Assembly (NCBI RefSeq): GCF_036227265.1
Contig: NZ_CP109446.1
Location: forward strand, 3,729,001-3,793,000
Origin: Streptomyces sp. NBC_01476
GTDB lineage: Bacteria > Actinomycetota > Actinomycetes > Streptomycetales > Streptomycetaceae
Reading direction: 5' to 3'
Length of the DNA: 64,000 nt
Under the pieces are notes generated by a model. The model did not search any database. It had not been told where the DNA came from and saw only the letters and a program-made list of their open reading frames with translations. Made by a program: the position numbers and the translations under genes. Positions 41,098-56,640 of the stretch are shown piece after piece. How positions within the stretch are numbered: position 1 is the stretch's first letter; every line of letters starts with the position of its first letter.

Positions 41098-41182
41098 GGA
41101 GGATTCGCCTAGAGGCCTAGGGCGCACGCTTGGAAAGCGTGTTGGGGGCAACCCCTCACGAGTTCGAATCTCGTATCCTCCG
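41098..41182 (+). tRNA. tRNA-Ser (GGA anticodon)
   Basis: GGAGGAT at 41098 pairs with ATCCTCC at 41175-41181. The anticodon stem-loop is CACGC-TTGGAAA-GCGTG, giving anticodon GGA for serine. The variable arm TTGGGGGCAACCCCT is long, as expected for class II tRNA-Ser, and the T arm is ACGAG-TTCGAAT-CTCGT. CCA is not encoded. It flanks a mobile element. Confidence 0.97.
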
Positions 41183-41202
41183 CACCCGCCCACCAGGGCA
41201 GA

Positions 41203-41961: not shown

Positions 41962-44727
41962 ATGCCTCGATACAAGGCGCTGTTGATCGGAGCTCACGAT
42001 TACCACGAGTCCGAGACATTCTCTCCGCTCCCTTTCATCCCGAATGACATGCAACAGCTAGCTGCCGCATTGAAGACGAGAGGGTTCTATTCGGCTGAGA
42101 TCGCCGAAGCACGGCGTCAGGTAGTGAGCAGAAACTTCGTAGTGGGTAAGGTAGCCACTTTTCTTCAACATGCCAGTCGTGGCGATAGACTACTTATTGT
42201 GCTCAGCGGCCATGGCCTGCACTCCCAAGGGGCCGACTATCTGATTCCCGAGGATGCCCCGACGAGCATCAACTTGATTGAAAGTGGCATCAAGATCGAC
42301 TGGGCAGGGGAAATTGAGGACTCGGCAGCGGAACAGGTTCTTTTCCTTATTGACGCCTGCCGCGAAGGCGTCGATTATGGAGCAAAATCCGCCGTCGGTA
42401 TTCACGCTTGGAGCAGAAGAAAGATAGACGCGGCGGCTCTGCGTAAAGTCGCCTACATGTACGCGTGCGCCGACGGAGCCTTAGCTCTATTCATACATGA
42501 CAAAGAATCCGTTCAGTCCGGTTATGAGATTGACACGAAGCCCGGTGAGTCTTTCAGTCTCTTCTCGCGAGCATTGTGCGATGTAATCAAGGACAACCCC
42601 TATGCTATGAGCTTGACCGATCTCGAAGAAGCGGTACAGCAGCGTATCGAAGAGATCCATCGAGCTTATGGAAAGAAGCGGAAACTCCAACGTGTCCGCG
42701 TCGTTCCTCACGGCAACCCGGAATATTTCCTTGCGCTGCCTGGACCGGACGCCAAAATTCCCCCTTCTAGCCGCCATGCCCCGAGTGCTGCTTTCAGGTC
42801 GTCTGAGAAACCGGCTACAGGGGACGTTATGTCGGCTTCATCGCAGTCCGCGCCGGCAAGATCTTTCGTGGCTGCAGGGTTAGAGGTAAGCACACCTCAG
42901 TCATTGGCTATTCGTAGAGATGATTTGTCCGCGCTAAGAAATGCAGCGCCAATCGAAGCCGTCATCTCCACCTACACCCGACTGCGCAAAGCCGGAAACG
43001 AACTGCGGGGTCCTTGCCCTCTCCATGAAGGGGGAGAGCAAGGGATCAGCGTCAACACCGCTAAGGGCGTCTTCTACTGCCATGACTGCATGCAGGGCGG
43101 GCACGTCCTCGACTTCGTAATGAAAATGGAGTGCCTGTCTCGCGACGAGGCCATCGAATGGATCGCAGCCAGGTCGGGGATCACCGTACAAGAGGGGAAG
43201 CACACACCGATCCGGCCGGAGGATCACACCCGGATCATCGCGGCAAATAGGATCGCCGCACAGTTCTATGCGGAACACCTAGGCAGCGCCGAAGCGAAGA
43301 TCGCACGGGAATTCCTGGCCACACGGGGCTTCGACCAAGCGACTGCGCAGCGGTTCTCAGTGGGGTACGCGCCGGCCGCGTGGGACCAACTGGTCAGGTT
43401 CTTGGGCGAGAAGGGCTTCACGGACAAGGAATTGATTCTGTGCGGGCTGGCGTCCGAGAGCCGCCGCGGCGGGACCATCGACCGGTTCCGGGGCCGACTG
43501 ATCTGGCCGATTCGGGACATCAAAGGTGAAGTCATCGGGTTCGGCGCGCGCAAGCTGCGCGACGAGGACCACGGGCCGAAATACATCAGCACGCCCGAGA
43601 CGCCCCTGTACAAGAAGTCCCAGATCCTGTACGGCATCGAGCATGCCAAGCGGGAGATTGTCCGCACCGGGCGGGCAGTGGTGGTCGAGGGTTACACCGA
43701 TGTGATGGCCTGTCACCTCGCGGGGGTGACTACCGCAATCGCCACCTGCGGCTCCGCCTTCGGCGGAGGGCACATCAACATCCTGCAGCGACTACTGACG
43801 GACAACTCCTTCGGCGAGGTCGTATTCATCTTCAACGGCGACGACACAGGGCAGAAGGCAGCGCTGCGAATCTTCGAAGACGACCAAAAGTTCGCCAAGA
43901 CGATCTCAATCGCAATCACCCCGGATGGCATGGACCCCTGCCAACTACGACTGGCCGAGGGGGATGCAGCGGTGCAGCGGCTGATCGATGATCGCACCCC
44001 GCTCTTCGCGTTCGTACTACGCTCTATCGTTTCACACTACGACCTAGACACCGGAGAGGGCCGCGTGGCTGCGGTCGGCGCGGCCATTCCCGTGGTGGCG
44101 GCAATAAGAGACTATGCGCTACGTGACCATTATGCCCTCAAACTGGCCAACATGACTGGCATGACCAGCCCGATCGAACAACAGTCAACGATTCGCCGAG
44201 CGCGAGCACTGGCCCGAACGAAGGAAAACAGCGCCACATCAAGCTGGGCGCCTGCACTCGACCTGCGCAGCCCCGCCCATCGAGTCGAGCGTGAGTTGAT
44301 CAAACTAGCTCTTCAATTTCCGAAGTTGGTTTCTCCTGCTTTCGATGAATATAATCAGTCCGAATTTACGGCAGCCCCCTATTCTGCGGTATTCCGCGCT
44401 ATCGCAAGCGCTGGGGGAACGTCTGCTGCGGGGGACTCCTACCTCGCGCGAATCCGCGAGGCAGCTGATGACCAGCCCACACGTCTCCTCATCAACGAAC
44501 TGGCCGCAGAACCGATAACGCACAAGACGCCCGAGATCTACGCAGGCGAAGTGCTAGTTAGGGTACGCCTAAGCGCCGTCGAACGTAGAGCCACGGAGCT
44601 GCACACCGCCCTCGCCCATGTAGCACCTTCCTCCAATCAAAAGGAGATCAATTCGCTCCAGAGCGAGCTATGGGCGGTACAGCAGTACGGGCACCGCCTG
44701 CGCTCACTAGGCGTCGCCGCCCTGTGA
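41962..44727 (+). CDS. Caspase-like protease fused to a DnaG-type primase
   Basis: 921 residues. Residues 1-262 are a caspase-like (C14/metacaspase) domain: YKALLIGAHDY, His84 in LSGHGLH and Cys133 in LIDACREG, the catalytic dyad, with ISDs near 165-175. A Ser/Ala/Pro-rich linker (265-315) follows. Residues 316-921 match actinobacterial DnaG over nearly its full length: CHC2 zinc finger (Cys352, His355, Cys373, Cys376), RNA-polymerase core (RFRGRLIWPI), Toprim Glu576 in VVVEGYTDV, then FNGDDTGQ, DPCQLRLAEGD and a helical C-terminal helicase-binding part. The usual FDGD of Toprim reads FNGD (Asn625), so metal binding is altered. Likely a defence effector: protease activation upon primase or replication sensing is a guess. 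DNA of the caspase half is more A/T-rich than the primase half, so the gene looks mosaic. Confidence 0.9.
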   Translation: MPRYKALLIGAHDYHESETFSPLPFIPNDMQQLAAALKTRGFYSAEIAEARRQVVSRNFVVGKVATFLQHASRGDRLLIVLSGHGLHSQGADYLIPEDAPTSINLIESGIKIDWAGEIEDSAAEQVLFLIDACREGVDYGAKSAVGIHAWSRRKIDAAALRKVAYMYACADGALALFIHDKESVQSGYEIDTKPGESFSLFSRALCDVIKDNPYAMSLTDLEEAVQQRIEEIHRAYGKKRKLQRVRVVPHGNPEYFLALPGPDAKIPPSSRHAPSAAFRSSEKPATGDVMSASSQSAPARSFVAAGLEVSTPQSLAIRRDDLSALRNAAPIEAVISTYTRLRKAGNELRGPCPLHEGGEQGISVNTAKGVFYCHDCMQGGHVLDFVMKMECLSRDEAIEWIAARSGITVQEGKHTPIRPEDHTRIIAANRIAAQFYAEHLGSAEAKIAREFLATRGFDQATAQRFSVGYAPAAWDQLVRFLGEKGFTDKELILCGLASESRRGGTIDRFRGRLIWPIRDIKGEVIGFGARKLRDEDHGPKYISTPETPLYKKSQILYGIEHAKREIVRTGRAVVVEGYTDVMACHLAGVTTAIATCGSAFGGGHINILQRLLTDNSFGEVVFIFNGDDTGQKAALRIFEDDQKFAKTISIAITPDGMDPCQLRLAEGDAAVQRLIDDRTPLFAFVLRSIVSHYDLDTGEGRVAAVGAAIPVVAAIRDYALRDHYALKLANMTGMTSPIEQQSTIRRARALARTKENSATSSWAPALDLRSPAHRVERELIKLALQFPKLVSPAFDEYNQSEFTAAPYSAVFRAIASAGGTSAAGDSYLARIREAADDQPTRLLINELAAEPITHKTPEIYAGEVLVRVRLSAVERRATELHTALAHVAPSSNQKEINSLQSELWAVQQYGHRLRSLGVAAL

Positions 44728-45966: not shown

Positions 45967-47202
45967 TCAGCGGCGCTGCTTCTCCTCTTCGCATCCCTGT
46001 GATTTCCACAGCAGGCCGTCAACCTTCACTGCCGTCTCCCGAAGCAGTGGATCAGTCACGTGCTGGTACCGCTTCGCCATCGATGCCGACGACCAGCCCA
46101 TGATCGCCATCACGATTCGCTCGGGTACACCGAGGAGCAGGAGAACTGTCGAGGCGGTGTGGCGGGCGTCGTGGAGGCGCGCGTCGCGGACGCCAGCTTC
46201 CTGGAGCAGCTCCTTCCAGTGGTGGTAGTCGGTGTTGGGGATCAGGGGTTCGCCGGTGGGTGAGGTGAAGACATAGCCCTTCTCCGTCCAGAGTTGCCGG
46301 GCCGCTGCGCGCTCCTGCGCCTGGACTTCCCGGTGCTGGCGCAGCAGTTTGGTCAGCTCGTCGGGGAGGCCGATCGCACGCTTGCCCGCGCGGGACTTGG
46401 TGTCCTTGGTCTCCCGGCGGATCTGGGTGCGCTGGCGGCGGTAGCCGGGTTTCCGGCCGCACTCCCCGCCGCAGCCGTGGGCGTACTTCGGTCGCAGGCG
46501 TCCTCGGCGGACGCGGATCACGCCGCCGTACAGGTCGACGTCCGACCACTGGAGGCCGAGCACCTCCCCCTGCCGGAGGCCGAGGGCTAGGGCGATGACC
46601 CAGCGTGCTGCATTGCGCCGCTTGCCAGCCGCCAGCAGGATGCGCTGCACCTCCTCCACCGAGTACGGCTCGATCTCCTCCTCTTCGAGGCGCGGCGCCT
46701 TGGCGATCTTGGCGACGTTCACCGTGAGGTGCCCCCGCCGTACAGCCTCGCCCAGGGCGACCCGTAGCGTGCGGTGCGCCTGGTGAGCAGTGGCCGGCTT
46801 GCTGCCGCTGTCCTGCATCTTCTTGTAGAAGCGCTCCAGGTGCTCCGGCTCCAGCTTGATGAGCCGGTGGGCGCCCAGCCCCGGTATGAGGTGGACGCGG
46901 ACTGCGACTTCGTAGCCGGCGATGGTGTTCTCGGAGACGCTGATCGGCGCGATGTTCTCGATCCAGTGCGTGAGCCACGCCTTGACCGTCCATGCCTGGC
47001 CAGGCTTGCGGACGGTGCCGGCGTCGCGCTGCTTCTCCAGCTCGCGGACGAGCTTGGTGACTTCGGCCCGGGTCTTGCGGGAAACGTGACGTCGGTCCGA
47101 GGTGCCGTCGTCCTTGATGCCGACGGTCACGCGGCCGTGCCACCGGCCGTCGTTCCCCTGATAGATGGACGACGCGCCGTTGGGCTGGCGGGAGTTGGCC
47201 AT
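45967..47202 (-). CDS. int: Tyrosine integrase
   Basis: 411 residues. N-terminal arm-binding and core-binding parts (SIYQGNDGRWHGRVTVG, WLTHWIENIAPISVSENTIA) lead into the catalytic domain: Arg210 in LALGLRQGE, His344 and Arg347 in HDARH, Trp370 in the usual second-His place (MGWSS), and Tyr379 in KRYQHV. A Cys/His-rich insert (HGCGGECGRK) may bind zinc. It catalyses site-specific insertion and, with the excisionase 10 bp upstream, excision. Same operon as xis. Confidence 0.95.
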   Translation of the reverse strand: MANSRQPNGASSIYQGNDGRWHGRVTVGIKDDGTSDRRHVSRKTRAEVTKLVRELEKQRDAGTVRKPGQAWTVKAWLTHWIENIAPISVSENTIAGYEVAVRVHLIPGLGAHRLIKLEPEHLERFYKKMQDSGSKPATAHQAHRTLRVALGEAVRRGHLTVNVAKIAKAPRLEEEEIEPYSVEEVQRILLAAGKRRNAARWVIALALGLRQGEVLGLQWSDVDLYGGVIRVRRGRLRPKYAHGCGGECGRKPGYRRQRTQIRRETKDTKSRAGKRAIGLPDELTKLLRQHREVQAQERAAARQLWTEKGYVFTSPTGEPLIPNTDYHHWKELLQEAGVRDARLHDARHTASTVLLLLGVPERIVMAIMGWSSASMAKRYQHVTDPLLRETAVKVDGLLWKSQGCEEEKQRR

Positions 47203-47212
47203 GTCGTCTCCC

Positions 47213-47515
47213 TCAGGCCGCGGTGGTGAAGCCGGAGGCGTAGCCGCCCTGCCGGGCGACGAAGGCAGCCAACGCTCCGGCCGGTATGCGGCGGAGGCTG
47301 CCGATCTTCACGGACGGGATCTGGCCTGAGGAGACGTACTCGTACATCTTGGTGCGGCTGATGCCGATACGGCGGGCGGCTTCGGCGACGGTGAGGGCGA
47401 CGAGGGTGGGATCGCCGTCCGATCCGCCCCGGGCGGCGATGAGCGCCCGGAGGTCTTCTTCCGCAACGCCGAGGAGGCGGGCGATCTGCGCGACCGGAAG
47501 GTCGTTGGAGTGCAA
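47213..47515 (-). CDS. xis: Excisionase, MerR-like helix-turn-helix
   Basis: 100 residues from TTG 47515 with GAGAGG eight bases upstream. A first small domain (NDLPVAQIARLLGVAEEDL) is followed by LTVAEAARRIGISRTKMYEYV and GQIPSVKIGSLRRIPAGAL, the winged-helix excisionase pattern. It bends DNA at the attachment site and directs the integrase to excision. It ends 10 bp before the integrase start. The leader upstream holds a hairpin and a tiny ORF. Confidence 0.88.
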   Translation of the reverse strand: MHSNDLPVAQIARLLGVAEEDLRALIAARGGSDGDPTLVALTVAEAARRIGISRTKMYEYVSSGQIPSVKIGSLRRIPAGALAAFVARQGGYASGFTTAA

Positions 47516-47547
47516 GGCGGAAACCTCTCTTGGCGAGGCTTGGGGGC

Positions 47548-47650
47548 GGCAACCCCGGCCTCGCCGGTCTTGTTCATTCGTGGGTACGGGCGGTTGTGCT
47601 GTTGGGGCGGGAGGACATAGCTGTTCCGCCGGTGTTCGTAGCACCGGCGG
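47548..47650 (-). promoter_or_regulatory. xis/int leader: hairpin plus conserved 50-base element
   Basis: On the minus strand, hairpin CCGCCGGTG-CTACGAA-CACCGGCGG (47626-47650) is followed by a segment (47548-47597) nearly identical to one before the replication gene (48414-48464). Order and spacing are the same in both. The pair looks like a shared leader RNA or protein-binding module controlling both operons. Confidence 0.65.
47574..47618 (-). CDS. Possible 14-residue leader peptide
   Basis: ATG 47618 opens MSSRPNSTTARTHE followed by TGA, inside the conserved leader. The same STTARTHE stretch is read in frame in the leader of the replication gene. It could couple translation to attenuation; no ribosome site is obvious apart from weak purines. 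Confidence 0.3.
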   Translation of the reverse strand: MSSRPNSTTARTHE

Positions 47651-47665
47651 AGGCGGGGGTCTGGA

Positions 47666-48205
47666 CTACGACGCGGTGCCCTGGTCCGGGGTGCGGAGCC
47701 AGCTCTGCATCTTGGGACGGGCACCGAGGTGGTGGCGGAACTCACCGTTGGATGCGACGGCCAGCTCGTGGGTGAGGAGAGCCTTCACGAGGTCGTCCTG
47801 ATCGGGGTGGGCCTCGGTGTACTCGCGGAGTTCGGCCTGGATGGCGTCCATGGCCTTGCCCAGGGCTCGCCACTGCTTCCACTGCTCGACGTACTCGCCG
47901 ACGAGTCTGCGGACCTTCGGGTTGGCGATGTGGCCGGGCGCGGCGGTGAGGTCGTCGAGGGTGATGTCGAAGACCTTGCAGAAGCCGAGCGCCTCGTCGA
48001 GGTTGACCCGGCGGCGGGGCTTGCCGCTCTCGATGCGCCAGATCGCGGACTGGTTGATCGGGTGGCCGGCCGCGGTCATGCGCTCGGCCAGGGTGACTGT
48101 GCTCCAGCCCCGGACCTCGCGTTCCAGCTTGACGCGCTGCGCGATGTAGTCCTCCGCGAGGGGTCGTTCGGGTCCAGCAGCTCGGGCTGCTCCTTCCTCG
48201 GCCAT
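47666..48205 (-). CDS. XRE-family repressor of the mobile element
   Basis: 179 residues from ATG 48205, with AGAGG eight bases upstream. The HTH is LAERMTAAGHPINQSAIWRIE with SGKPRRRVNLDEAL, then a helical C-terminal half (VEQWKQWRALGKAMDAIQAE). It lies between the xis/int and replication operons, the place of the master repressor in such elements. Palindromic sites just before its start region (48272-48309) are candidate operators. Confidence 0.85.
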   Translation of the reverse strand: MAEEGAARAAGPERPLAEDYIAQRVKLEREVRGWSTVTLAERMTAAGHPINQSAIWRIESGKPRRRVNLDEALGFCKVFDITLDDLTAAPGHIANPKVRRLVGEYVEQWKQWRALGKAMDAIQAELREYTEAHPDQDDLVKALLTHELAVASNGEFRHHLGARPKMQSWLRTPDQGTAS

Positions 48206-48271
48206 CGCGTCCACCTCTTTCGTCTCGGGCCGTCGGGCGACGGCGCGGGCGGGGCCTCAAGTAGTAAAGCT

Positions 48272-48309
48272 CATTCGGGAGCAGAATGCAAGCTAGTCAT
48301 TCCGCAATG
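48272..48309. promoter_or_regulatory. Candidate XRE operators between repressor and replication gene
   Basis: CATTC-GGGAGCA-GAATG (48272-48288) and CATT-CCGC-AATG (48298-48309) share the same half-site, and TACACT at 48317 could be a rightward -10. The site lies in the divergent promoter region, fitting control by the repressor. Confidence 0.4.
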
Positions 48310-48498
48310 CTCCTGGTACACTTGTGCGGGACCCCCTGGACAGCGACGAACACGAAGGAGAGAACGAAGAAGCCCCCGGCGCTACGAACGCCGGGGGCTG
48401 AAGCAGAAACCTCAACAACCGCCCGTACCCACGAACGATCAAGACCGGCAGGGCTGGGATTGCCGTCCCGCTGCCCGCCAGGTGAGGAGTTTCCGTGA
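48286..48498 (+). CDS. Possible leader ORF coupled to the replication gene
   Basis: A 70-codon frame from ATG 48286 reads through the hairpin and conserved leader and its TGA overlaps the GTG of the replication gene (GTGA). It contains STTARTHE as in the xis leader. No ribosome site precedes it, and its composition is unlike a folded protein. It might only serve translational coupling. Confidence 0.25.
   Translation: MQASHSAMLLVHLCGTPWTATNTKERTKKPPALRTPGAEAETSTTARTHERSRPAGLGLPSRCPPGEEFP
48371..48464 (+). promoter_or_regulatory. Replication-gene leader: hairpin plus conserved 50-base element
   Basis: Hairpin AGCCCCCGGCG-CTACGAA-CGCCGGGGGCT (48371-48399) is followed by the segment 48414-48464 that matches the xis leader in inverted orientation. 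The hairpin arms differ between copies but the CTACGAA loop is kept, showing that pairing and loop are what matter. It resembles a terminator, so attenuation is plausible. Confidence 0.65.
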
Positions 48499-50015
48499 AC
48501 CAGCGTACGGCCCCGGGGCCGGATACGCCATCGCGCCCGCCGACAGCGGCCCCGGCTGCCGACGAGCCGCCCAACGACCTGGTCGCCGAGCAAGCGGTCC
48601 TCGGCGCGTGCATGTTCCAGCACCAGGCCGTGGACGAGGTACGGGCACTGCTGGTGCCGGAGGACTTCTACCGCCCGGCGCACGAGACCGTCTGGCGGGC
48701 CATCCTCGCCCTGCGCGCCGAGGACGCGCCCACCGACCCGATCGTGCTGGGCGACTTCCTACTCGGCCGGGGCGACCTCAACCGGATCGGCGGCACCACC
48801 TACCTCCACGTGCTGGCCGGCGCCCCGCCGACAGTCGCCAACGCCGCGTACTACGCCGAGATCGTCCGCCGCAAAGCCGACCTGCGCCGCCTGCGGGAGA
48901 ACGGCCTCCGCACCCTCCAGCGGGCCGCCGAGCCAGGCGCCGACCCCGACGCGATACGCAGCGCCGCCGAGGCCGAGCTGCGCGCCGAACGCGACCGCGC
49001 CCTCGCCACCGGCGGCGGCAGGCTGTCCCGCTACCTGGTCGACGGCTGGCGCTTCGTCACCGAGACCGGCGCGGACACCGACCCGCTGTGGGGCACCCGC
49101 GAGCAGACCGCCTGGTCCTCGGGCGAGAGCCTGATGATCGTCGGCCCGCCCGGCGTCGGCAAGACCACCCTGGCCCACCAGGTGATCCTCGCCCGCCTCG
49201 GCCTCCAGGACACCGTCCTGAACATGCCCGTCTCCCCCAGCGAGCGAGTCCTGTACCTGGCCATGGACCGGCCCAAGCAGATCGCCCATGCCATGGCCCG
49301 CCGCGTCGCGCCCGAGCACGAGCCGGTCCTGCGCGACCGGCTCGCCGTCTGGCAGGGCCCGCTGCCCGCCACCCTCGACAAGGAGCCCGACCTCCTCGCC
49401 GACCTCGCCGCCGCCCACCAGGCCGACACCATCGTGATCGACAGCCTCAAGGACGCGGTCAGCACCCTCGTCGACGACGCGCTCGCCGTCGCCTTCCACA
49501 ACGCCCGCATGCGCGCCCTGCGCAACGGCGTCGAGGTCATGGAACTCCACCACCAGCGCAAGGCCACCGCCGACGCCCCACGCGGCCAACGCCCCACCCT
49601 CGACCGGGTCTACGGCTCCACCTGGATCACCTCCGGCGCGGGCAGCGTGCTGTTCATCGCCGGAGAGGCGGGCGACCCCGCCGTCACCGTCCACCACCTC
49701 AAGACCCCGACCGGCGAGATCGGCCCCCTCCAGGTCATCCACGACCACGAGCGCGGCACCACCACGATCGAGCCCACCTTCGACCCGGTCGCCATCCTGC
49801 GCGCCAACCCCGGCGGACTCAGCACCCGCGACCTCGCCGCGATCCTCGGCGGCCAGGCCAACCCGGACCGGTCGGACGTGGAGAAGGCCAGGCGGCACCT
49901 GGAACGCCTCGTCAAGACCGGCCTCGCCCGGAAGACCGAGGGCACGGCAGGCGGCAACGGAGGCGGTCAGCAGGCCCGCTACCACGTCTCCAACCTGCAC
50001 ATCGCCGTCGGCTGA
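48495..50015 (+). CDS. Replication helicase with DnaB N-domain and RepA-like ATPase
   Basis: 506 residues from GTG 48495 (GTGAGGAG upstream). Residues about 25-125 are a DnaB-type N-terminal domain (DLVAEQAVLGACMFQHQAVD, FYRPAHETVWRAI). Residues about 190-410 are a RecA-like ATPase: GPPGVGKTTLAHQV (about 217), TIVIDSLKD (Walker B) and HHQRK. The last 80 residues are a winged helix (LSTRDLAAILGG). It likely unwinds and replicates the element after excision. The leader upstream duplicates that of xis. Confidence 0.88.
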   Translation: MNQRTAPGPDTPSRPPTAAPAADEPPNDLVAEQAVLGACMFQHQAVDEVRALLVPEDFYRPAHETVWRAILALRAEDAPTDPIVLGDFLLGRGDLNRIGGTTYLHVLAGAPPTVANAAYYAEIVRRKADLRRLRENGLRTLQRAAEPGADPDAIRSAAEAELRAERDRALATGGGRLSRYLVDGWRFVTETGADTDPLWGTREQTAWSSGESLMIVGPPGVGKTTLAHQVILARLGLQDTVLNMPVSPSERVLYLAMDRPKQIAHAMARRVAPEHEPVLRDRLAVWQGPLPATLDKEPDLLADLAAAHQADTIVIDSLKDAVSTLVDDALAVAFHNARMRALRNGVEVMELHHQRKATADAPRGQRPTLDRVYGSTWITSGAGSVLFIAGEAGDPAVTVHHLKTPTGEIGPLQVIHDHERGTTTIEPTFDPVAILRANPGGLSTRDLAAILGGQANPDRSDVEKARRHLERLVKTGLARKTEGTAGGNGGGQQARYHVSNLHIAVG

Positions 50016-53626: not shown

Positions 53627-53997
53627 CGAGCGAAGGACGCAGAGACGCTGGAAGCTTGGGAATCACCCTGGCCTGCGCACCGTGCCCAACCCAACCGAGC
53701 TCAGAAAGTACGACAGACTGCCGTACAGCTCTTGCACCCCTGCTGTGCAGCCCAAGCCAACGTGGTGCCTGCCCGGCCTGGGATTTACAGCCGTACAGCC
53801 CCGCACCCGCTCGACGTAGGTCCCCCGGTGACTTGCGGATTTGCGATCGCACCAGACCCGAGAGATAAGCTGGTACCGGCCGCACGAGAGTGTTTTCGGT
53901 CACACGTAAAGTGCCTTCGTGCGGCCACTTCTTCTGTCCCGCCGCGCCCACGCCATGCGTGGATACTCAGGCGGGTCGGGGGTGTGGGAGCCATAGA
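53627..53997. other. Intergenic between relaxase and valS
   Basis: No gene is seen. It should hold the right end of the mobile element and the valS promoter. Two CCGTACAGC copies (53721 and 53790) and the inverted repeat at 53878 are the only structures noted. I found no copy of the tRNA-Ser 3' end. Confidence 0.45.
53871..53926 (+). promoter_or_regulatory. TGGTACC followed by long-loop inverted repeat before valS
   Basis: TGGTACC (53871-53877) directly precedes GGCCGCACGA, which pairs with TCGTGCGGCC at 53917-53926 across 29 bases. The TGGTACC core recalls the T-box sequence that contacts an uncharged tRNA end, and valS is next, but the flanking consensus and specifier loop are not evident. 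It may simply be a terminator of the element. Confidence 0.3.
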
Positions 53998-56640
53998 ATG
54001 GGCGTTGTGACTGACGACACCCAGCGCCCAGAGCCCGGGCTGAACAACAGCGCCCCCGAACTGCCGACTCAGTATGCACCGGCCGAAGTAGAGGGATCAC
54101 TGTACGAGCGCTGGGTAGAGCGCGGCTACTTCGAGGCGGACGCCAAGAGTGCCAAGCCCGCGTACACCATCGTCATTCCCCCTCCCAACGTCACCGGCTC
54201 CCTCCACCTGGGTCATGCCTTCGAGCACACGCTGATTGACGCCCTCACCCGCCGCAAGCGCATGCAGGGCTACGAGACGTTGTGGCAGCCAGGGATGGAC
54301 CACGCGGGCATCGCCACGCAGAACGTCGTCGAACGGGAGCTCGCCAAGGAAGGCAAGTCCCGTCACGATCTGGGCCGTGAGGCGTTCGTCGAGCGGGTCT
54401 GGCAGTGGAAGGCCGAGTCCGGTGGTCAGATCGCGGGCCAGATGCGACGTCTGGGTGACGGCGTGGCCTGGAGCCGTGACCGCTTCACCATGGACGAGGG
54501 TCTGTCCCGGGCGGTCCAGACCGTCTTCAAGAGGATGTACGACGACGGCCTGATCTATCGCGCCGAGCGGATCATCAACTGGTGCCCACGCTGCCTGACT
54601 GCCATCTCGGATATCGAAGTCGACTACCAGGACGACGACGGTGAGCTTGTCTCTCTGAAGTATGGCGAGGGCGAGTACAGCGTCGTTGTGGCGACCACCC
54701 GCGCCGAGACGATGCTCGGCGACACCGCGGTCGCCGTTCATCCGGACGACGAGCGGTACGCGCACCTGGTCGGCAAGCAGATCAAGCTTCCCCTGACCGG
54801 GCGCACGATTCCCGTTGTTGCCGACACGCACGTCGACCCGGAGTTCGGTACCGGTGCTGTCAAGGTCACGCCCGCCCATGACCCGAACGACTTCGCTATC
54901 GGACAGCGCCACAATCTTGAGTCGATCGCCGTCCTGGACGAGCGCGGAGTCATCACCGCCCACGGTCCCTTCGAGGGGCTCGATCGTTTCGAGGCTCGTT
55001 CCGCGATCGTCGCCGCCCTGCGCGCCGAGGGCCGGATCGTCGCCGAGAAGCGGCCGTACGTCCACTCGGTCGGTCACTGCTCGCGGTGCAAGACGACGCT
55101 GGAGCCGCGGCTGTCCCTGCAGTGGTGGGTGAAGGTCGAGACACTCGCCAAGGCCGCGGGAGACGCGGTCCGCGACGGGCGGGTGAACATCCATCCCGCC
55201 GACCTGTCCCAGCGCTACTTCGACTGGGTCGACAACCTCAACGACTGGTGCATCTCACGGCAGTTGTGGTGGGGCCACCGGATTCCCGTCTGGCACGGCC
55301 CGAACGGCGAGACCGTGTGCGTCGGCCCCGACGAGCAACCGCCCAGTGGCGAGGGCTGGGAGCAGGACACCGACGTCCTCGACACCTGGTTCTCCTCCGG
55401 CCTGTGGCCCTTCTCCACGATGGGCTGGCCGGAGCAGACTGAGGACCTGGCCAAGTTCTATCCGAACTCGGCCATGGTCACCGGGTACGACCTGATGTTC
55501 TTCTGGGTTGCCCGCATGATGATGTTCGGCCTGTACGCGATGGACGGGGAAGTCCCGTTCCGCACGATCGCCTTCCACGGCATGGTCCGTGACGAGCACG
55601 GCAAGAAGATGTCGAAGTCGTTCGGCAACACCGTCAATCCGCTGGACTGGATGGACAAGTACGGCTCCGACGCGCTGCGGTTCACCCTCGCGCGGGGCGC
55701 CAACCCGGGCACCGATGTGCCGATCGGCGAGGACTGGGTCCAGGCGTCGAGGAACTTCGCCAACAAGATCTGGAATGCGACGCGGTTCGCACTGATGAAC
55801 GGCGCCACGATCGAGGGCGAGCTGCCTCCGGCCGAGCAGCTCTCGGCCACCGACCGATGGATCCTGTCCCGACTCAACACGGTTGTGGCCGAGGCGGACG
55901 CGTACTACGACGACTACCAGTTCGCGAAGCTCGCCGACGCCCTCTACCACTTCGCCTGGGACGAGGTCTTCGACTGGTACGTCGAGCTGTCCAAGACGAC
56001 GTTCATGGCCGGTGGCGACGCGGCCAAGGCCTCGGCACGCGTCCTGGGCGAGGTCCTGGACGTAACACTGCGCCTGTTGCACCCCATCGTCCCGTTCGTG
56101 ACCGAGACCCTGTGGACCACCCTCACCGGCCGCGAATCCGTCGTCATCGCCGACTGGCCGGCGGACAGCGGCTTCCGTGACGCCGCTGCTGAGGCCGAGA
56201 TCGGAAACCTCCAGCAGGTCATCACCGAGGTGCGCCGCTTCCGCGCCGACCAGGGCCTCCAGCCCGGCCAGAAGGTCCCGGCCCGCCTGGATCTGTCCGG
56301 CACGTCCCTTGCCGCGCACGAGTCCGCCATCCGCCAGCTGCTGCGCCTCCAGCCGGAGGCTGACGGGTTCAACGCCACGGCGACCCTCCCTGTCGCCGGC
56401 GCCACGGTCGCCCTCGACCTGTCCGGCACCATCGACGTCGCGGCCGAGCGCAAGCGGCTGGCCAAGGACCTCGCTGCTGCCGAGAAGGAGAGGTCCCAGA
56501 CGCAGGCCAAGCTCGGCAACGAGGCGTTCATGGCGAAGGCGCCGGAGAACGTGGTCGAGAAGATTCGTACCCGCCTGGCGAAGGCGGAAGCGGACATCAT
56601 CCGCCTGGAGAACCAGATCAGCGGTCTGCCGCCCGCGTAG
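53998..56640 (+). CDS. valS: Valyl-tRNA synthetase
   Basis: 880 residues, full length. [20 protein letters not shown] holds the HIGH-type motif (HLGH, about 70-73). The editing domain includes [21 protein letters not shown] and [28 protein letters not shown] (about 537) is the KMSKS loop, followed by the anticodon-binding domain and a C-terminal coiled coil ([20 protein letters not shown]). ATG 53998 has GGGAG at good distance; GTG 54007 is possible. Neither clpX nor folC is adjacent, unlike the usual Streptomyces valS. It may be a second copy. Confidence 0.95.

Follow-up and report, generated by a model that had tools for sequence, protein, structure and literature searches.

Coordination of replication and excision in the integrative elements of actinomycetes is known mainly from pSAM2, where it relies on a Pra-activated operon and on repression by KorSA. 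Here a mobile element was studied that lies in a 64,000-nt stretch of Streptomyces sp. NBC_01476 (assembly GCF_036227265.1, contig NZ_CP109446.1, positions 3,729,001 to 3,793,000; this whole stretch is called the window below) and in which a replication gene (rep) and a xis-like gene (xis) are each preceded by a copy of the same leader module. Comparison of the sequences makes it probable that a cis-encoded antisense RNA (a countertranscript) has its gene in the rep-side module, that the xis-side module is a promoterless duplicate of the target of this RNA, and that pairing would cover the ribosome sites of both genes. The comparative support consists of a putative antisense promoter, a terminator, folding that is predicted on the antisense strand alone and co-variation of the xis copy. 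The two copies are not equivalent: one is predicted to encode the RNA and the other looks like a second target.

In pSAM2 and related actinomycete integrative and conjugative elements (AICEs) integrase, xis and rep are likewise jointly controlled, and initiators of the DUF3631/RepAM type are shared by AICEs and the elements studied here (PMC3218068). In pSAM2, however, repSA, xis and int form one Pra-activated operon, whereas here rep is divergent from xis and int, in the window element as well as at those related loci that gave an integrase match, and the coupling is proposed to run via RNA. The locus has the sequence features of a plasmid countertranscript, the activity of which is predicted. 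As in the CopA/CopT system of plasmid R1, an antisense RNA would lie over the leader of the initiator gene, and the tap-repA arrangement of R1 has its likeness in 15 loci with a short frame (20-25 aa) that stops just before the start of the next gene (PMC5717011). The sequences are unrelated, however, and the RNA predicted here has three hairpins including a U.G-rich middle one. Moreover, rep of the window is translated directly and a second, promoterless target copy stands before xis. In the I-complex plasmids (IncI, IncK and IncB) the loop bases of RNAI and of stem-loop I set specificity and incompatibility (PMC10724649). The box and loop variants described below look like such specificity groups, although fold, hosts and genes differ. 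The SAS/ESAS of cluster K mycobacteriophages are also repeated modules with inverted repeats just 5' of start codons in actinobacterial mobile DNA (PMC3203893), but they are 13 bp long, stand before many genes and are unrelated in sequence, and the part of that source available describes no antisense promoter or terminator for them. The difference from known countertranscripts that weighs most is the second target before xis. An earlier description was not found in openly licensed full texts, and the module matched nothing in Rfam, including its ctRNA, CopA and RNAI families, either in the window (E <= 5) or in four related loci (E <= 0.5).

Each copy of the module consists, in this order, of hairpin 1, a linker, the box CCGCCCGTACCCACGAA, hairpin 2 (loop TTGCCG), the Shine-Dalgarno sequence and the start codon. 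One copy is located 5' of rep on the plus strand. There hairpin 1 occupies 48371..48399, the box 48418..48439 and the hairpin 2 region 48444..48479 (inner loop TTGCCG at 48460-48465; delimited by folding and covariation, strand not assigned), followed at 48484..48489 by the Shine-Dalgarno sequence GAGGAG, 5 nt 5' of the GTG start codon. The other copy (47516..47656, minus strand; match of covariance model R1 at 47538-47653, minus) has its box at 47574..47594 (minus), as judged from the sequence and a repeat search, and is the predicted trans target. A leader module before both operons had been proposed in a sequence-only reading, and both copies were found where it had placed them. The repeat search returned a 55-nt inverted pair (47543-47597 / 48415-48469, 87% identity) and a hairpin pair (47626-47650 / 48373-48397, 84% identity). 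Two exact occurrences of CGCCCGTACCCACGAA, one on each strand, were found in the window, and the whole single-contig genome of 8.4 Mb has no third. The two hairpins fold far more stably than shuffled sequences (z of -5.5 and -4.3). That reading had described hairpin 1 and the box correctly for both copies and had missed the second conserved hairpin near the Shine-Dalgarno sequence. Its leader before xis is indeed in front of xis, but it is intercistronic, since it sits between the stop codon of a gene for a 182-aa regulator and xis. The loop CTACGAA is identical in the window pair, as it had stated, but is not universal (CTACCAA, CTGAGAA, TTGCAG, TTGGAG and others occur), and hairpin 1 itself is absent from several xis-side partners.

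Matches of the rep module were obtained by blastn in 103 of 298 Streptomycetaceae genomes and with covariance model R1 in 96 of the 298, belonging to 13 of 17 genera. Across the class, R1 matched 8 of 395 genomes, seven of them from Streptomycetaceae. With this recurrence the module is no product of chance. Viral contigs, searched for the exact pattern, and phage and plasmid collections, searched by blastn, gave no match, and weak matches of a second covariance model, R2, outside the family (L212-L214) were by eye ordinary terminator-like hairpins. In total 60 regions were fetched and 94 copies aligned. The related elements contain the module and conserve it as a pair, the prevailing form being the same divergent arrangement. 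Of 61 rep copies, 48 had a partner module (local score >= 38) on the other strand at a distance of 344-1181 nt upstream; shuffled controls scored 34 at most. Wherever xis-type genes could be identified the partners stand before them, and most of the loci have, about 2-3 kb upstream on the opposite strand, an integrase like that of the window. The genes 3' of the rep-type copies encode DnaB-like proteins, DUF3631 (RepAM) proteins, DUF2637 proteins or a 'MARIRTIKPE' protein; RepAM is the initiator of the AICE pMEA300 (PMC3218068). In the 'MARIRTIKPE' group a frame of 20-25 aa, mostly 24, begins at the start codon that follows the module. Its stop is just 5' of the main gene at 15 loci (L088, L089, L090, L093, L094, L100, L101, L103-L107, L110-L112), and it often ends in KAG plus one residue. 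This frame is probably a translationally coupled leader peptide. One genome (L128, L215 and L216) has two more antisense-type module copies, which lie at about 4.04 and 4.45 Mb and have different loops (TTGGAG, CTGCCA); these two have their loops in common and differ in the box. Close to another related element Rfam group II intron domain matches were noted about 2.8 kb from the module (L076:929-3396, plus strand).

A structure common to both copies is silent on the strand to which it belongs, and therefore four strand tests were made. Hairpin 1 of the rep copy, read on the minus strand, was picked up by a generic terminator scan as an intrinsic terminator within the leader, with the tail TCTTCGTTCT. 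The antisense side of hairpin 1 is T-rich in the rep copies, with 5.8 T in 14 nt against 2.0 in the xis copies (p = 2e-11), and no T-tract follows hairpin 1 on the sense strand of the rep copies. The second test made use of wobble pairs. In 57 distinct hairpins, with G.U and A.C penalised equally, the rep hairpins 1 read in sense contained 588 Watson-Crick pairs, 46 A.C and not one G.U; on the antisense strand these are 46 G.U and no A.C. The xis hairpins 1 (18 A.C against 15 G.U in sense) showed no strand bias, and for hairpin 2 of the rep copies the counts (6 A.C against 4 G.U) do not inform on the strand. Folding was the third test. The box of the rep copy forms, on the minus strand, the predicted middle hairpin AUCGUUCGU-GGGU-ACGGGCGGU with three U.G pairs. 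Its mean folding energy was -8.2 kcal/mol in antisense against -1.1 kcal/mol in sense, where no stable fold exists, and in the xis copies the antisense fold was weaker (-5.6 kcal/mol, p = 4e-5). In the rep mRNA the box is predicted to be unpaired because its C.A positions cannot pair. With RNAalifold, 31 rep copies gave three helices with 23 pairs and -37.5 kcal/mol in antisense, and the identical copies two helices with 14 pairs and -23.4 kcal/mol in sense. In the middle helix UG, CG and UA interchange among copies. Covariation in hairpins 1 and 2 exceeded that of all shuffles and slid controls in an alignment fitted to the model, and in hairpin 2, 25 of 93 distinct sequences had changes on both sides at each of two inner pairs. 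Together with the recurrence in related elements, this supports the view that a selected RNA structure is involved. The three-helix consensus predicts an antisense RNA of about 130 nt (48360..48496, minus), with its 5' end near the rep start codon and its 3' end after hairpin 1, that would contain the complement of the Shine-Dalgarno sequence of rep and stem-loops with loops complementary to the target. Model R2, which has the window copy among its own sequences, matched 48366-48496 (minus) with 108.9 bits. By these results the conserved structure of the rep-side module belongs to the antisense strand.

The fourth test concerned the promoter. Opposite the start of rep, within codons 3-13, a conserved antisense pattern was found that has, judged by its sequence, the form of a promoter: a -35 nTG, 18 nt and a -10 TANNNT. 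In the window these would be ATGGCG (48526..48531, minus, codons 11-13), opposite the conserved sense CA, and TACGCT (48502..48507, minus, codons 3-5) at an 18-nt spacing. Both fit the Streptomyces coelicolor consensus of TANNNT for the -10 and NTGACC for the -35 element (PMC4895711). Viewed in sense, the pattern consists of an A at position 2 of codon 3, a T that ends codon 4, an A that starts codon 5 and a CA that ends codon 12. Among 40 nonredundant rep copies, 34 have the CA (rep nt 35-36) and 34 the -10 element, and in 31 both elements are exact; the 20 xis copies compared with them have neither. At codon 4, where ten different amino acids are encoded, the wobble base is nevertheless T in 34 of 40 copies, against a background of 6.5%; at codon 12 it is A in 34 of 40 (background 6.9%). 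The CA was also kept in 14 of 14 DnaB-type relatives from named genomes, some of which overlap the first set.

The xis copies form a class of their own, without antisense promoter, T-tract or strand bias and often without hairpin 1. They retain the box and the hairpin-2 loop. Where loop or box vary, both copies of an element are altered: TTGCAG (L088), TAGCC (L071, L072, L078, L081), CTGCCA (L110), CTACCAA (L085, L087) and, in the window, CGCCCGTACCC. Rep leaders scored 96.6 in likeness to the partner within their element, against 71.3 to other partners. Among 16 divergent clusters the values were 67 and 36, a difference reached in 0 of 20000 permutations. Copies of an old duplication that track each other must be held together by something, and an RNA from one copy that is required to pair with the other would give such tracking. 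Stems that differ while box and loop track argue against plain gene conversion.

Several observations weigh against an antisense RNA with two targets. Some xis-side partners lack hairpin 1, and the own partner was the top-scoring one in only 7 of the 16 clusters. In addition, the aligned copies share descent, and fewer independent events lie behind the counts than these suggest. Not every element would be under dual control, as 13 of the 61 rep copies, about a fifth, have no partner at a score >= 38. As to the promoter, TANNNT is replaced by CATACT in a clade that reads AGTATG at codons 3-4, the -35 element of the window is weak, and a generic sigma-70 scan of the window reported no promoter. 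The best of the alternatives would be that the antisense RNA controls rep only, the xis copy being a relic of duplication or answering to something else. The confinement of promoter, terminator and intact box hairpin to the rep copy, the rep copies without a clear partner and the frequent loss of hairpin 1 on the xis side would all suit it. A relic is expected to drift, however, whereas the partners keep box and hairpin-2 loop and change them in step with the rep copy, which makes this explanation unlikely. The idea that one signal acts on excision as well as replication, already put forward in the sequence-only reading, very probably holds, with the exception of those rep copies that have no clear partner.

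The mechanism favoured in that reading was a sense leader RNA (an attenuator, an antiterminator or a protein-bound leader) before both operons. Hairpins 1 and 2 do form and co-vary in the sense RNA too, and they are positioned directly 5' of the ribosome sites. The rep hairpin 1 would nevertheless carry in sense 46 A.C mismatches and no G.U pair, it is not followed by a T-tract, the box does not fold, and the conserved antisense promoter in rep would be left unexplained. The wobble pairs, box fold, promoter and terminator tail of the rep copy all being antisense, a sense leader, also one of a riboswitch-like kind, is not supported and appears very improbable. Hairpin 1 as a sense attenuator in particular is rejected on account of the wobble asymmetry and the absence of the T-tract. 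Sequestration of the rep Shine-Dalgarno sequence by a leader AACCTC was predicted in sense for the window and some relatives and was inconsistent across clades; it may be a secondary feature. Loop-loop pseudoknots with a downstream UAC motif were abandoned, as this motif is the antisense -10 element. The module might also act as DNA, be it as a replication origin, a nick site or a set of protein-binding repeats. This would suit its place next to replication genes, some of which encode DUF3631/RepAM proteins, predicted rolling-circle initiators (PMC3218068), but is hardly credible for a module with a fixed position relative to Shine-Dalgarno sequence and start codon, a promoter and a terminator on its flanks, wobble pairs that differ between strands and unrelated initiators (DnaB-like, DUF3631 and MARIRTIKPE type) behind it. 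A candidate rolling-circle nick site, a TCTTGAT-like string in the window box, was unconserved in relatives.

For the countertranscript with two targets the following course can be envisaged. Transcription from the promoter in rep codons 3-13 would start about at the rep start codon, cover the leader with its Shine-Dalgarno sequence and end at hairpin 1. The RNA of about 130 nt would fold as three stem-loops, hairpin 2, the U.G-rich box hairpin and hairpin 1, and the weakness of the middle one would favour its unfolding to a long duplex. It would pair fully with the rep leader in cis and mask the rep ribosome site. With the xis leader it would pair in trans via box and loops, so that the xis ribosome site would be covered or closed. 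All three steps, transcription of the RNA, its inhibition of translation and its effect on xis in trans, are inferred. In the integrated state Rep and Xis would both be kept low by this one dose-sensing RNA and the element would stay integrated and unreplicated; after excision the RNA would control copy number, and in a recipient without the RNA derepression would occur. On balance we lean towards a single antisense RNA opposite the initiator gene as a shared switch for excision and replication, with two separately encoded targets that are kept complementary by co-evolving loops. Since a copy that enters a cell brings none of the RNA with it, this RNA may also serve for element-specific exclusion or as a zygotic-induction signal. 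If this is true, coordination would be RNA-based and different from that of pSAM2, and common to elements with unrelated initiators in about a third of the sampled Streptomycetaceae genomes. Precise single-base predictions would then follow for an antisense RNA whose two ends are defined. It could form a basis of compatibility groups among co-resident elements, and through it copy number and excision could be adjusted in Streptomyces vectors. The strand of a structured RNA gene can also be read from the asymmetry of G.U and A.C together with a promoter hidden in coding wobble positions.

The genes of the window element are divergently arranged, with integrase, xis and regulator on the minus strand and rep on the plus strand. 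The tyrosine integrase gene (45967..47202, minus; Pfam Phage_integrase, 4.9e-23) is preceded by xis (47213..47518, minus; TTG start; Pfam HTH_17, 5.2e-16). Between the xis leader and the divergent promoter region lies the gene of the 182-aa putative helix-turn-helix regulator (47666..48214, minus; sub-threshold Pfam HTH_31 / HTH_26), homologues of which occupy the same position in many related elements. The sequence between the regulator gene and the rep leader (48264-48323) contains the inverted repeats CATTC...GAATG and CATTCCGCAATG, which are possible operators of this regulator at the divergent promoters. The rep gene (48495..50015, plus) encodes a DnaB-like protein (Pfam DnaB N-terminal domain, 2.8e-28; AAA_25) and is followed by DUF2637, MobC and relaxase genes, the relaxase being of the MobA/VirD2 type. 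An FtsK-type Tra protein was not identified among the genes that were scanned, and no convincing direct repeats marked the attachment sites. Close relatives of the element occur in Actinacidiphila rubida and several Streptomyces species. Immediately after the relaxase gene a 916-aa valyl-tRNA synthetase is encoded (53890-56640, plus). Elsewhere in the window, near a tRNA-Ser gene (41098-41183), a single frame of 921 aa (41962-44727, plus) encodes an unusual fusion, with a caspase domain at residues 4-233 (Peptidase_C14) and a complete DnaG primase at residues 319-898.
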